A stretch of 64,000 nt of DNA, taken from assembly GCF_029318635.1 (NCBI RefSeq), contig NZ_CP119676.1, positions 2,493,001-2,557,000 on the forward strand, written 5' to 3'. The first letter of the stretch is position 1, and the number at the start of each line of letters is the position of its first letter. The notes under the pieces were generated by a model. The model had not been told where the DNA came from and did not search any database. It was given only the letters and a program-made list of their open reading frames with translations. This DNA comes from Varunaivibrio sulfuroxidans (lineage in GTDB: Bacteria > Pseudomonadota > Alphaproteobacteria > Rhodospirillales > Magnetovibrionaceae). Positions 9,633 to 63,977 of the stretch are shown piece after piece. A program made the translations under genes and the position numbers.

Positions 9633-9707
9633 TGGCTGGGGCGGCAGGATTCGAACCTGCGAATGCCGCTACCAAAAAGCGGTGCCTTACCACTTGGCGA
9701 CGCCCCA
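9633..9707 (-). tRNA. tRNA-Gln (anticodon TTG)
   Basis: The minus strand folds as a full cloverleaf: acceptor TGGGGCG/CGCCCCA, anticodon stem CCGCT/AGCGG with loop TTTTGGT giving anticodon TTG, and a T arm with GGTTCGAATCC. Discriminator G is followed by an encoded CCA (9635-9633). TTG reads CAA/CAG glutamine codons. Confidence 0.96.
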
Positions 9708-54490: not shown

Positions 54491-54788
54491 AATAAATTCC
54501 GTTCCGCCACCCCCAAGGAAGACCGTGTAAAGTGGGGATAACGCCGCTTTCCCCCGGCATGGGGAAGGGCGGCGGGAGGGTGGCGGAAGGACGGCGCGGC
54601 CCCGTCCTGGGGACAACTTCGTGGAAACATAACAAGAACAAAACCTTTGCCGCGGGTCACGTGCTCCTCTACACTATGGCCCCCACCCCGGAGCGGGCGC
54701 ACGCGGCGCGTGCGTGGGCCGAATGTTTCCGACGAATAAAGCCCGATCGAGAGTGGGCGACGTGGAATTTCTGCAGGAGAGGACGTCG

Positions 54789-57700
54789 ATGGCGCAAATG
54801 GCATCCATATCGCATCAAATCTGGGACATGAAATACCGACTCAAAGATGCCGACGGACACCCGGTGGACAAGGGCGTCGCCGATACCTGGCGGCGTATCG
54901 CCAAGGCCGTCGCGGCGAGCGAACGAAATCCCGGCGATTGGGAAGATCGTTTTTACCGAGCGATGGAGGATTTTCGCTTCCTTCCCGCGGGCAGAATCGT
55001 CGCCGGAGCGGGGGCCGGGCGCCAGGTGACGCTGTTCAACTGCTTCGTCATGGGCGATATTCCCGATGACATGGGCGGTATTTTCGACGCCCTGAAAGAC
55101 GCCGCGCTGACCATGCAGCAGGGCGGTGGGATCGGGTACGATTTTTCCACGTTGCGTCCCAAGGGCGCGCGGGTTGGGGGCGTCGGGGCGGATGCTTCGG
55201 GACCGCTGCCGTTCATGGACGTTTGGGATTCGATGTGCCGCACGATCATGAGCGCGGGCTCTCGGCGCGGCGCGATGATGGGCGTTTTGCGCTGCGATCA
55301 TCCGGACATCGAAGACTTCATCGACGCCAAGTGCGCGCCAGGGCGGATGCGGATGTTCAACCTGTCGGTCCTGGTCAGCGACGATTTCGTCCGCGCGGTC
55401 AAGGAAAACGCACCCTGGGATCTGGTCTTCGACGGCGTGGTCTATCGTACCGTTAAGGCGCGCGATTTGTGGGACAAGGTTATGCGTGCGACCTACGCCT
55501 ACGCCGAACCCGGTGTGATCTTCATCGACCGCATCAACCGCGCCAACAATCTGTGGTATTGCGAAACCATCCACGCCACCAACCCGTGCGTGACGGCGGA
55601 CACTTGGGTGCAGACGGATCAAGGCCCCCGCCAAGTCGCGCAACTGCACGGTGGGCCATTTCGAGCCATTGTCGATGGCCGCCCTTATGAAAGCGCGAAA
55701 CAGGGATTTTTCTCGACGGGGGTGAAGAATATCTTGCGCCTGACGACGAAGGAGGGGCATGCCCTGCGCCTGACGGCGAATCATCCGGTGCGCAAGGTCG
55801 TCCGTAAGACGCGCCATACGCTGGATAGCGATTGGGTGCCCGCCGGGAATTTAGCCCCGGGCGATGAAATCGTGTTGCACGATCATCGTTCATACGGCAC
55901 ATGGGGTGGGCGCGGGTCCGAACAAGAAGGCTACCTTCTAGGTCTGCTGGTCGGTGACGGCGCGTTGAAGCAAGACAAGGCCGTCTTGAGCGTCTGGCTG
56001 GCGCGTTCTGTGGTGAACGGCGGGAATGGCGCGGCGGGCGCACACGGCGTCATGGACGCGGCCCTCGCGGCGGCGCTGACCCTTCCTCATCGTGCGGATT
56101 TCCGGGGATGGACGGAGGTTAAAGGCCGGGATGAGTTCCGCATGAGCCCGGGTGCGCTGAAAACCCTGGCGCATGACATGGGGATGGCGCCCGGAGCGAG
56201 AAACGTTACGCCCGAAATCGAACGCACATCGTCTGATTTTTATTGTGGATTTTTGCGTGGCTTTTTCGATGCCGACGGCTCCGTTCAGGGGGCGCAGAAA
56301 AAGGGCGTCAGCGTCAGGCTGGCGCAAAGCGATCTCGAACGGCTGCGCGCGGTTCAGCGTATGCTGCTGCGCCTGGGCGTCAATTCCACCATCTATCAAG
56401 ACCGCCGTCCCGCCGGGAAACGCTCCTTGCCCGACGGTCGGGGGGGGCGGCGGGAATATGAGTGCGCGGCGAATCACGAACTCGTGATTTCCGGCGCTAA
56501 TCTTGAGGGGTTTGCCGAACGGATCGGTTTTGCCGATATAGATAAAATGCTGCGCTTAAAAAGCGCGCTGTCGGGCTATAAGCGCGTCTTGAACCGGGAG
56601 CGCTTCATCGCAACCGTCGATGTGCTTGTGGCGGATGGAAGCGAAGAGGTTTTTGACGTCCAAATACCGGGCGCAAATGCGTTCGACGCCAATGGCCTGT
56701 ATGTTCACAACTGTGGCGAACAGCCATTGCCGCCCTATGGGGCGTGCCTTTTAGGGTCGATCAATCTGGCGAAGATGGTCGGCGATCCGTTCACCGACGA
56801 TGCCGCGTTGGATGTGGTGGCGCTGCGCGCCGTCGTCGGCGATGCGGTGCGCTTTTTGGACGATGTCATCGACGTGTCTAATTTTCCACTGCCCCAGCAA
56901 CGCCACGAGGCGTTGTCGAAACGGCGGATCGGCCTCGGCGTGACCGGCCTTGCCGACGCGCTGATCTTGTGCGGCGCGCGCTACGGCTCGGCGCGGGGCG
57001 TCGCGCTGTGCGAAACCTGGTTTCGCGAGATCGAGCGGGCGGCTTATTTCGCGTCGGTCGAGATCGCCAAGGAAAAGGGCCCGTTCCCTCTTTTCGATCG
57101 GGAAAAATATCTCCGGGGTGAAAAGATCAAAGGGCTCGACGCCGATCTGCGCGCCGCGATCGCCGAGCACGGCATACGCAATTCGCACCTCACGTCGGTC
57201 GCGCCGACGGGGACCATCTCGCTGTATGCCGATAACGTCTCCAGCGGTCTGGAGCCGGTGTTCAGCTTCAAATACAGCCGTAACGTCCTGCAACCGGACG
57301 GCGCCCGCCGCGCCGAAGATGTGGTCGATTACGCCTATCGTCAATTCCACAGGATCAAGGGAGAAGATGCGCCGCTGACGGAGGCCTTCGTTGACGCCAT
57401 GGACCTGAGTCCGAAAGACCATCTGGTGATGCAGGCGGCGGCGCAGCGCTTTGTTGACAGTTCGATTTCGAAAACCATCAACGTGCCCGAAGACATTCCT
57501 TTCGACAGCTTCAAGGACATCTACATGCAGGCCTTCGACGCCGGTTGCAAGGGGTGTACGACGTATCGCCCCAACACCGTCACCGGGGCGGTGCTGGAAG
57601 TCAAGAAAGAGCGCAAGAAGCCCGCCCCGGTCGAACCGGAGCTGCCTTTCGCCACGCCGGGCATGGCCACCACCAACATCCGCCCCAAGGATATCGGCGA

Positions 57701-58277
57701 CAGCGGGGCCGTCGCCCGGCTTTTCCGACCGCTCGACCGTCCCGACGCCCTGCCGGGGGAAACCTACAAGGTGCACTGGCCGGAAAGCGACCATGCCATT
57801 TACATCACGCTGAACGATTTGATCGACGAAAACGGTCGTCGCCGCCCGTTCGAGGTGTTCATCAACTCGAAAAACATGGAACACTACGCCTGGACGGTGG
57901 CCCTGACGCGGATGATCTCCGCCGTCTTCCGTCGTGGCGGCGATGTTAGCTTCGTGGTCGAGGAACTGAAGGCCGTCTTCGATCCCCGTGGCGGGCAATG
58001 GGTCAAGGGCAAGTACGTACCCTCGTTGCTGGCGGCGATCGGCGACATCATCGAACAGCATATGATCGCCACGGGATTTTTGCACGCCTCCTGGTCGGGC
58101 GGCGGCGGGCAAAACCCGGAGCCCGAAACGCCGCCGCAAAGCGCGAACAACCCCGGCGATGTCGAGGGGAAGGGGGGGGCGCGCTTTAAGACCTGCCCCA
58201 AATGCGCCCAACCGGGCTTTATCCACCAGGAAGGTTGCGACAGCTGCCTGTCGTGCGGCTATTCGAAGTGCGGCTAG
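54789..58277 (+). CDS. nrdJ: Adenosylcobalamin-dependent (class II) ribonucleotide reductase precursor with intein
   Basis: Makes deoxyribonucleotides using adenosylcobalamin, in the cytoplasm. The 1162-residue precursor contains a 375-residue intein (residues 267-641); the spliced enzyme would be 787 residues. Host motifs before it are QQGGGIGYDFSTLRPKGA and MSAGSRRGAMMGVL; after it CGEQPLPPYGACLLGSINL, GVTGLADALILCG and SVAPTGTISLYADNVSSG. A TSCPD domain (about 1010-1110) and a C-terminal cysteine cluster (CPKCAQPG, CDSCLSCGY) follow. ATG 54789 is chosen behind AGGAGAGG. Its B12 need matches the cobalamin genes in the window. Confidence 0.95.
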   Translation: MAQMASISHQIWDMKYRLKDADGHPVDKGVADTWRRIAKAVAASERNPGDWEDRFYRAMEDFRFLPAGRIVAGAGAGRQVTLFNCFVMGDIPDDMGGIFDALKDAALTMQQGGGIGYDFSTLRPKGARVGGVGADASGPLPFMDVWDSMCRTIMSAGSRRGAMMGVLRCDHPDIEDFIDAKCAPGRMRMFNLSVLVSDDFVRAVKENAPWDLVFDGVVYRTVKARDLWDKVMRATYAYAEPGVIFIDRINRANNLWYCETIHATNPCVTADTWVQTDQGPRQVAQLHGGPFRAIVDGRPYESAKQGFFSTGVKNILRLTTKEGHALRLTANHPVRKVVRKTRHTLDSDWVPAGNLAPGDEIVLHDHRSYGTWGGRGSEQEGYLLGLLVGDGALKQDKAVLSVWLARSVVNGGNGAAGAHGVMDAALAAALTLPHRADFRGWTEVKGRDEFRMSPGALKTLAHDMGMAPGARNVTPEIERTSSDFYCGFLRGFFDADGSVQGAQKKGVSVRLAQSDLERLRAVQRMLLRLGVNSTIYQDRRPAGKRSLPDGRGGRREYECAANHELVISGANLEGFAERIGFADIDKMLRLKSALSGYKRVLNRERFIATVDVLVADGSEEVFDVQIPGANAFDANGLYVHNCGEQPLPPYGACLLGSINLAKMVGDPFTDDAALDVVALRAVVGDAVRFLDDVIDVSNFPLPQQRHEALSKRRIGLGVTGLADALILCGARYGSARGVALCETWFREIERAAYFASVEIAKEKGPFPLFDREKYLRGEKIKGLDADLRAAIAEHGIRNSHLTSVAPTGTISLYADNVSSGLEPVFSFKYSRNVLQPDGARRAEDVVDYAYRQFHRIKGEDAPLTEAFVDAMDLSPKDHLVMQAAAQRFVDSSISKTINVPEDIPFDSFKDIYMQAFDAGCKGCTTYRPNTVTGAVLEVKKERKKPAPVEPELPFATPGMATTNIRPKDIGDSGAVARLFRPLDRPDALPGETYKVHWPESDHAIYITLNDLIDENGRRRPFEVFINSKNMEHYAWTVALTRMISAVFRRGGDVSFVVEELKAVFDPRGGQWVKGKYVPSLLAAIGDIIEQHMIATGFLHASWSGGGGQNPEPETPPQSANNPGDVEGKGGARFKTCPKCAQPGFIHQEGCDSCLSCGYSKCG
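55587..56711 (+). other. Intein with LAGLIDADG homing endonuclease in NrdJ
   Basis: In-frame 375-residue insertion between ATNP and CGEQPLPPYG. It starts with Cys1 (CVTADTWVQT, block A), has the block B motif TANHPVRKV, two endonuclease motifs EGYLLGLLVGDGAL and GFLRGFFDADGSV, and ends in block F/G VFDVQIPG ... NGLYVHN followed by Cys of the host. All splice-junction residues (Cys1, terminal His-Asn, Cys+1) are present, so self-splicing is expected. Both LAGLIDADG motifs keep their acidic residues, so homing activity is possible. Confidence 0.95.
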
Positions 58278-61097: not shown

Positions 61098-62960
<1,863 letters not shown>

Positions 62961-62978
62961 GACCTTGCCCGTGCCGTC

Positions 62979-63977
62979 CTACAGGACCACTTTGGCGTTG
63001 CCGACGGCGTCGGGAAGGTCCTCGTTAAAGCAGCGCTGATAATACTCGGCGACGATGGGGCGCTCCAATTCGTCGCACTTGTTGAGGAAGCTGAGACGAA
63101 AAGCGAAGGTTAGGTCGCCGAAAATGTCGGTATTTTCGGCCCAGGTCATCACGGTGCGGGGCGACATGACGGTTGAAATGTCGCCGTTGACGAAGCCTTG
63201 GCGGGTCAGGTCGGCGACCTCGACCATCGCCGATATTTTGGCCCTGCCGTCTTCGGTGTTGAAGGTGGGCAGCTTGTTCAACATGATGTTGACCTCGTCG
63301 TCGTGGGGCAAATAGTTAAGCGTGGCGACGATGCTCCAACGGTCCATCTGGCCTTGATTGATTTGCTGGGTGCCGTGATACAGCCCCGTGGTGTCGCCCA
63401 GGCCGATGGTGTTGGTGGTCGAAAAAAGGCGAAAATAGGGATGCGGCTTGATGACCCGGTTCTGGTCGAGCAGGGTCAGCTTGCCTTCGACTTCGAGCAC
63501 GCGTTGAATGACGAACATCACGTCGGGGCGTCCGGCGTCGTATTCGTCGAAGACGATGGCCACCGGGCGCTGCAACGCCCAGGGCAAAATACCCTCGCGG
63601 AACTCGGTGATCTGCTTGCCGTCCTTGAGCACGATGGCGTCCTTGCCGACGAGGTCGATGCGGCTGACGTGGCTATCCAGATTGATGCGCACGGTGGGCC
63701 AGTTGAGGCGCGCGGCGACCTGTTCGATGTGGGTCGATTTTCCGGTGCCGTGATAGCCTTGGATCATGACCCGGCGGTTGTGGGCGAACCCGGCCAGGAT
63801 CGCCAACGTGGTGTCGTGATCGAACTGATAGGCGGGGTCGATGTCGGGGACGTGTTCCTCGCCCCGGCTGAACGCGGGAACGACAAGATCGGAATCGATC
63901 TTGAACGTTTCGCGCACCGACACCGTGGTGTCGGGCTTATCGAGCGGGAAGGCGTTAGATTCGGTTGGCGTGCTCAT
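62979..63977 (-). CDS. cobS: Cobaltochelatase subunit CobS
   Basis: AAA+ ATPase subunit of the aerobic cobaltochelatase, 332 residues, working with CobT and CobN. Walker [14 protein letters not shown], Walker [13 protein letters not shown], sensor region [18 protein letters not shown] and the second-region motif [17 protein letters not shown] are intact. ATG 63977 starts close to the window edge and gives the normal CobS N-terminus. Probably the first gene of a cobST operon. Confidence 0.96.

Follow-up and report, generated by a model that had tools for sequence, protein, structure and literature searches.

The window analysed here is a stretch of 64,000 nucleotides from the genome of Varunaivibrio sulfuroxidans, which is a single contig of 3,066,297 bases. 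On the forward strand of the window, an open reading frame (54714-58277) runs across 1187 codons without a stop. The longest form of this frame starts at a GTG (54714) and would give a spliced product of 812 residues; a start at the ATG (54789) gives a computed 787 residues after splicing, the length stated in the initial annotation. Read from the ATG, the frame is made up of an N-extein of 266 residues ending in ATNP (54789..55586), an intein of 375 residues from Cys1 to Asn375 (55587..56711), a C-extein of 521 residues (56712..58274) and a stop codon (58275-58277), all on the forward strand. The N-extein is supported by alignment to T. maritima NrdJ and by TIGR02504, and the C-extein by the open frame, Pfam and the T. 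maritima alignment. The limits first given for the intein proved right to the base, as the frame and junctions confirm, and chance or artefact as the source of the call is ruled out by the agreement of frame, junctions and relatives.

Against TIGR02504, a model of adenosylcobalamin-dependent reductase, the host precursor reached 560.5 bits (cut-off 400), and its barrel domain matched PF02867 at 2.6e-121. Based on these matches and the T. maritima alignments, the host, which had been named as NrdJ, is by its sequence a class II (B12-dependent) ribonucleotide reductase NrdJ. It departs from none of the 117 near-invariant columns of the small-NrdJ alignment. Cys85 (81 of 81 letters) and Cys278 (83 of 83 rows) are conserved in the same alignment and are taken by us to be the redox pair, and Cys761, Cys764, Cys775, Cys778, Cys781 and Cys786 are presumably the C-terminal redox cysteines. 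Some 3 kb downstream of nrdJ are genes for the cobaltochelatase subunits CobT and CobS (61098-63977, reverse strand), and no class I small subunit was found in the genome; both features are consistent with the predicted adenosylcobalamin dependence of NrdJ. Rfam gave a single match across the window, a tRNA gene (9636-9707, reverse strand).

The intein is preceded by ETIHATNP and followed by CGEQPLPPYG, so that Pro(-1) (55584..55586, forward strand) stands at its N-terminal splice junction and Cys(+1) directly after it. Its assignment draws on the junctions, Pfam, the alignment of relatives, an AlphaFold2 model and PDB matches. Block B is represented by T-A-N-H (Thr63 and His66; 55773..55784), the first LAGLIDADG motif by GYLLGLLVGDG (Asp124; 55929..55961), the second by FLRGFFDADGS (Asp230; 56250..56282) and the C-terminal splice junction by His374-Asn375 (56706..56711), all on the forward strand. 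Cys1, Thr63, His66, Asp230, Asp357 (F block), His374 and Asn375 are invariant in all 86 aligned family inteins, and Asp124 has its counterpart in 85 of them. Every class 1 splicing residue is thus present in the window intein, and the complete splice junctions and two endonuclease motifs noticed at first hold up against the 86-intein alignment. A decayed copy is ruled out on sequence, as the invariant residues are present in both intein and NrdJ.

In Pfam, LAGLIDADG_3 (PF14528) matched the intein at 7e-27. The Intein_splicing match (1.1e-8) covers it from residue 39 on only and falls 0.4 bits below the cut-off, and the score for TIGR01445 (intein N-terminal region) is also slightly below the cut-off. 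An AlphaFold2 prediction of the intein with 12 flanking residues on each side, made from 37 aligned sequences, reached a mean pLDDT of 89.5 and a pTM of 0.89. In a Foldseek search of the PDB with this model, the top ranks were occupied by intein-endonucleases (TliVMA, PI-SceI and PI-PfuI; 7qsu at 3.6e-20), with I-DmoI next, at whole-chain TM-scores of about 0.5 to 0.6 and an rmsd of 6 to 13, which indicates that the domains match and that their relative placement is not close. The model thus has a predicted intein-endonuclease (Hint) fold, and the insert is, as judged from its residues, a class 1 intein that carries an endonuclease of the LAGLIDADG type; both protein splicing and DNA cutting are predicted for it.

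In T. maritima NrdJ (1xjk/1xje), residues 131-321 are matched by the best stretch of the N-extein and residues 322-638 by the C-extein. Since one alignment ends at 321 and the other begins at 322, the insertion point of the intein falls precisely between the counterparts of these two residues. Cys(+1) (56712..56714, forward strand) is Cys267 of the spliced NrdJ, whose NPCGE finger loop occupies residues 265-269, and corresponds to T. maritima residue 322, which we take to be the thiyl cysteine. This Cys of NPCGE is invariant in all 83 aligned small-NrdJ rows. In passages of PMC9669993, the thiyl radical is placed on the finger-loop cysteine, and the class II motif is given as NPCXE, found in 3,175 of 3,347 sequences. 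By this motif, the +1 residue of the intein is the catalytic (radical) cysteine, in agreement with the initial annotation, which had the residue after the intein serving both as splicing nucleophile and as catalytic residue. From the position of the insertion, unspliced NrdJ should be inactive. Reviews describe inteins in general as favouring active sites (passages of PMC7765530 and PMC5874633). The present locus offers a clear example of a mobile element at the single residue that its host enzyme cannot alter, with 14 empty family alleles available for comparison.

A scan of one-per-species genomes found 468 encoding loci, of which the best 80 were retained by intein similarity and the motifs CVT[AS]DTWV and [DE]E[IV][MV]LHDH; owing to this choice, the conservation of the intein start is partly by construction. 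Together with six viral loci, L008, L009 and the window, these made up the 89 loci examined; a partial match (L128) was left out. The junction NP/C...HN/C, where the slash marks an intein boundary, occurs in 88 of the 89 loci, including the best 80 of 468, and in 86 of 87 distinct inteins, as two pairs hold an identical intein. Pro(-1) is likewise present in 88 of the 89 loci, and Cys(+1) in all of them. Inteins at this reductase site in other organisms, mentioned in the initial annotation, are thus confirmed. The exception to the junction is the viral L127, inside another protein. The 86-intein alignment left out L127 for its different host, L042 (contig shared with L008) and L123 (the same intein as L122). 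L127 (5001-6005 of its viral contig) is a 31% relative with the flanks WHQ/CEVG, and by these flanks its host is not a reductase. The viral hosts L122, L124, L125 and L126 match the monomeric class II reductase model TIGR02505, with scores below the cut-off because only C-exteins were supplied.

The distribution of the intein is sporadic. Relatives were recognized in 17 of 225 genomes of the window's order, and a search for relatives in 41 genomes recovered the intein from four, the copy of G039 being spread over two contigs. Two genomes of one genus (G181 and G182) hold relatives that are 60% and 45% identical to the window intein. No close phage or plasmid source was found, all matches in phages (49 records) and plasmids (2 records) being below 60% identity, and among viral contigs (seven loci) the best match reached 47%. 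Of 2415 pairs, formed from the 70 of 82 rows with sufficient length, 1519 were more similar in the intein than in the exteins, a count that is biased by the selection for intein similarity.

The initial annotation proposed a survey of relatives for empty alleles, and such alleles turned out to predominate in the window's family. A search covered 18 genomes of this family, and the small NrdJ could be read in 17: in 14 it is empty, and in three (G000, which is the genome of the window, G013 and G015) it carries the intein. All 14 finger-loop motifs of the large NrdJ, described below, that were read in this family are uninterrupted. On the tree of the 17 small NrdJ rows, the presence of the intein requires three changes, and the well-supported branches also force three. 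The nearest host relatives of the other two carriers are empty, namely G016 for G013 (91.7% identity) and G006 for G015 (92.9%).

Host and intein trees were also built from 28 hand-chosen rows. The host tree rejects a clade of the window and G013 (log-likelihood loss 118.8, p-AU 2.3e-5), whereas the intein tree unites them at 97/91, and the two are 74% identical in their inteins and 69.5% in their exteins. All three family inteins form one group in the intein tree (100/99). However, an intein tree constrained to the host-like grouping of G013 with G015 is not rejected (p-AU 0.167), and a recent transfer is therefore not proven. A comparison of intein and host phylogeny had been suggested at the outset; the best topologies of the two trees disagree, at a strength that leaves the host-like alternative open to the intein. 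Within the family, the intein may have been lost repeatedly or passed between members.

The GC content of the intein (0.606) is close to that of the exteins (0.613 and 0.623), and its GC3 (0.675) is lower than theirs (0.763 and 0.791); a foreign composition was considered and set aside, as neither value gives a strong sign of recent arrival. Among close pairs whose dS is informative, each of the two intein domains has a dN well under its dS, and the five Rhodanobacter loci gave dN of 0.016-0.059 and dS of 0.25-0.58. Three pairs (L092/L098, L085/L089 and L102/L115) have a very low and uninformative dS, including L092/L098 with a dN/dS of about 0.5 to 0.8. Between the window and G013 (L008), synonymous sites are saturated or nearly so, and dN is 0.115 for the endonuclease (window 55923-56561), 0.243 for the splicing domain and 0.240 for the exteins. 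The endonuclease is thus about twice as conserved in this pair as the splicing part and exteins. A sliding comparison of the same pair showed no sharp break that would point to recombination inside the intein.

The genome contains a second class II reductase, which is complete at 1225 residues (L004 3241-6918, reverse strand, equal to G000:C1 399240-402917). It scored 2195 bits against PRK07562 (cut-off 1737), and its NPCSE motif is uninterrupted and free of an intein. This large NrdJ is present in most family relatives too, at 74-79% identity to the copy in V. sulfuroxidans. No class III reductase was found in the genome. As the second class II reductase is intact and intein-free, no essential function of V. 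sulfuroxidans has to depend on the splicing of this intein. The initial annotation had named a second functional reductase together with decay of the intein copy as contrary to its reading; the second reductase does exist, and the intein copy shows no decay.

A different situation was met in some other carriers. Forty hand-chosen genomes among the best 80 of 468 loci were surveyed, the completeness of their assemblies not being given. In 33 of these, two or more places matched PF02867, and in seven the single place was the one enclosing the intein. These seven comprise two named strains (Halospina denitrificans DSM 15505 and Methylobacter marinus A45), Ca. Contendobacter odensis and four MAGs (Mariprofundaceae, Tepidiphilus, Ectothiorhodospiraceae and a gammaproteobacterium). 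No class III reductase, monomeric class II reductase or above-threshold small-subunit gene was found in the seven, one of which (G070) has a sub-threshold small-subunit-like match of 20.8 bits. All seven keep Pro(-1), Cys(+1) and an intein without a stop. As the intein-bearing NrdJ is the sole reductase detected in these seven of 40 carriers, splicing there is probably obligatory, and it must take place in vivo if the assemblies miss no other reductase. In M. marinus A45 (L077 5001-6131), the first LAGLIDADG Asp is replaced by Asn, the one exception among the 86 inteins, with all splicing residues retained; this pattern would be expected where splicing, but not homing, is required. The sole-reductase carriers, the second intein-free class II reductase and the Pro before the intein are the new points of this analysis. 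The initial annotation contained neither the last two nor the NrdJ-1 split intein situated one residue further on.

Taken together, we consider it very probable that the insert is a class 1 intein of the LAGLIDADG type, placed at the NP/C site of a class II NrdJ, which splices by means of the radical cysteine and homes into empty nrdJ genes. In the precursor, Cys1 would attack the carbonyl of Pro(-1), and the N-extein would be passed by transthioesterification to the future radical residue, Cys(+1). Cyclisation of Asn375, assisted by His374, would release the intein, and an S-to-N shift would restore the NPCGE finger loop. One side chain would then act once as splicing nucleophile and afterwards as radical carrier in each turnover; given this double use, the precursor should be inactive. 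The endonuclease would spread the intein by cleaving empty nrdJ genes across their finger-loop codons, while the conserved finger-loop stretch may supply targets and make imprecise loss costly. The Pro at -1, the second reductase, the unrejected host-like grouping of the inteins and the splicing-domain scores below their cut-offs count against this explanation.

The intein may alternatively be a redox or oxygen switch, in which a disulfide between Cys1 and Cys(+1) would hold back splicing, and the oxygen-independent reductase would become available under reducing conditions only. Both cysteines are indeed present in all 89 loci; however, the Pro and Cys at the junction are fixed by the host motif, and their conservation therefore says nothing on regulation. 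Moreover, no NrdR-like palindrome was found within three mismatches near either nrdJ, no Rfam riboswitch was found in the window, and modern inteins are regarded as likely parasites in passages of a review (PMC4031507), so that we think such a switch improbable. Still less credible is an intein that cleaves only or does not splice at all, leaving this NrdJ a silent passenger and the supply of deoxynucleotides to the large intein-free NrdJ: the second reductase, the warning about Pro(-1) in PMC13123727 and the long branch (0.5 to 0.7) of the window's small NrdJ would all fit, but extein and intein have no stop, frameshift or lost catalytic residue and no near-invariant NrdJ column is altered, the divergence of the large NrdJ makes the long branch at least partly genome-wide, and the same junction occurs in genomes in which no other reductase was detected.

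The intein at the NP/C site of NrdJ is ordinary for the window alone, and its useful part is the Pro at -1. In passages of PMC13123727, Pro or Asp at -1 compromised splicing of NrdJ-1 (native exteins NPC and SEI), and both were called incompatible; prolyl thioesters are described as poor acyl donors in passages of PMC8883728. In the family of the window intein, Pro precedes the intein as a consequence of the NP-C motif of the host, and several bacteria seem to depend on splicing after the residue called incompatible. In the literature passages searched, neither Pro(-1) nor the identity of the +1 and radical cysteines was found stated for this intein, and we do not claim absence from print. That this lineage is specialised for a prolyl N-junction, with the radical Cys as nucleophile, and forms the sole gate to deoxynucleotide supply in some bacteria, appears to us evenly balanced between true and false. 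If true, the first acyl shift at Pro-Cys would be handled differently from that of model inteins. Chemistry after proline is directly testable, and it could yield tools for joining after this residue.

Among known systems, the Methanothermobacter RIR1 mini-intein of a class II reductase shares the native Pro(-1) and Cys(+1) with the window; it differs in that it is not known to have an endonuclease, and its Pro(-1) has reportedly been changed for work in E. coli. An NrdJ intein of the present type is already in print: according to passages of PMC4465626, Azotobacter chroococcum NrdJa, a B12-dependent reductase, also has a LAGLIDADG_3 intein, of 370 residues (321-690), which is absent from A. 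vinelandii. Unlike that of the window, this host is gammaproteobacterial. The Rhodanobacter loci examined here have the same junction as the window. The NrdJ-1 split intein (passages of PMC13123727) also interrupts the finger-loop motif of an NrdJ, but it is split, lies one residue after the radical cysteine, has Ser(+1) instead of Cys(+1) and is impaired by Pro(-1). The Aquifex aeolicus NrdB intein, for which splicing and an insertion between metal ligands are demonstrated in passages of PMC8772380, is likewise a LAGLIDADG intein that splits an active-site motif of a reductase with a Cys after the junction; its host is a class I small subunit, and di-iron ligands are separated there rather than a radical cysteine.

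Residues 42-375 of the window intein align to positions 941-1241 of the 1684-position NCBIfam model PRK08332 (1.7e-17). The match of the full precursor runs on into the C-extein, which suggests a homologous intein built in at the corresponding place. Distant homologues are placed at SNL/C in the class Ib NrdE of SPbeta, Miltoncostaea and a Staphylococcus SPbeta-like phage. The SPbeta BnrdE intein and its kin (about 23% identity) lie just before the class I finger-loop cysteine in SNL/C(S/T)E and share Cys1 and Cys(+1) with the window, but they differ in the class Ib NrdE host, Leu(-1) and a terminal Gly-Asn instead of His-Asn. As the NrdJ and class Ib NrdE inteins are correspondingly placed, members of this intein lineage share the position just before the radical cysteine in different reductase classes. 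In the NrdE genes of SPbeta (L129), the Miltoncostaea plasmid (L130) and the Staphylococcus phage (L131), the full pattern is SNL/C...GN/C(S/T)E, with Gly in place of His before the last Asn.
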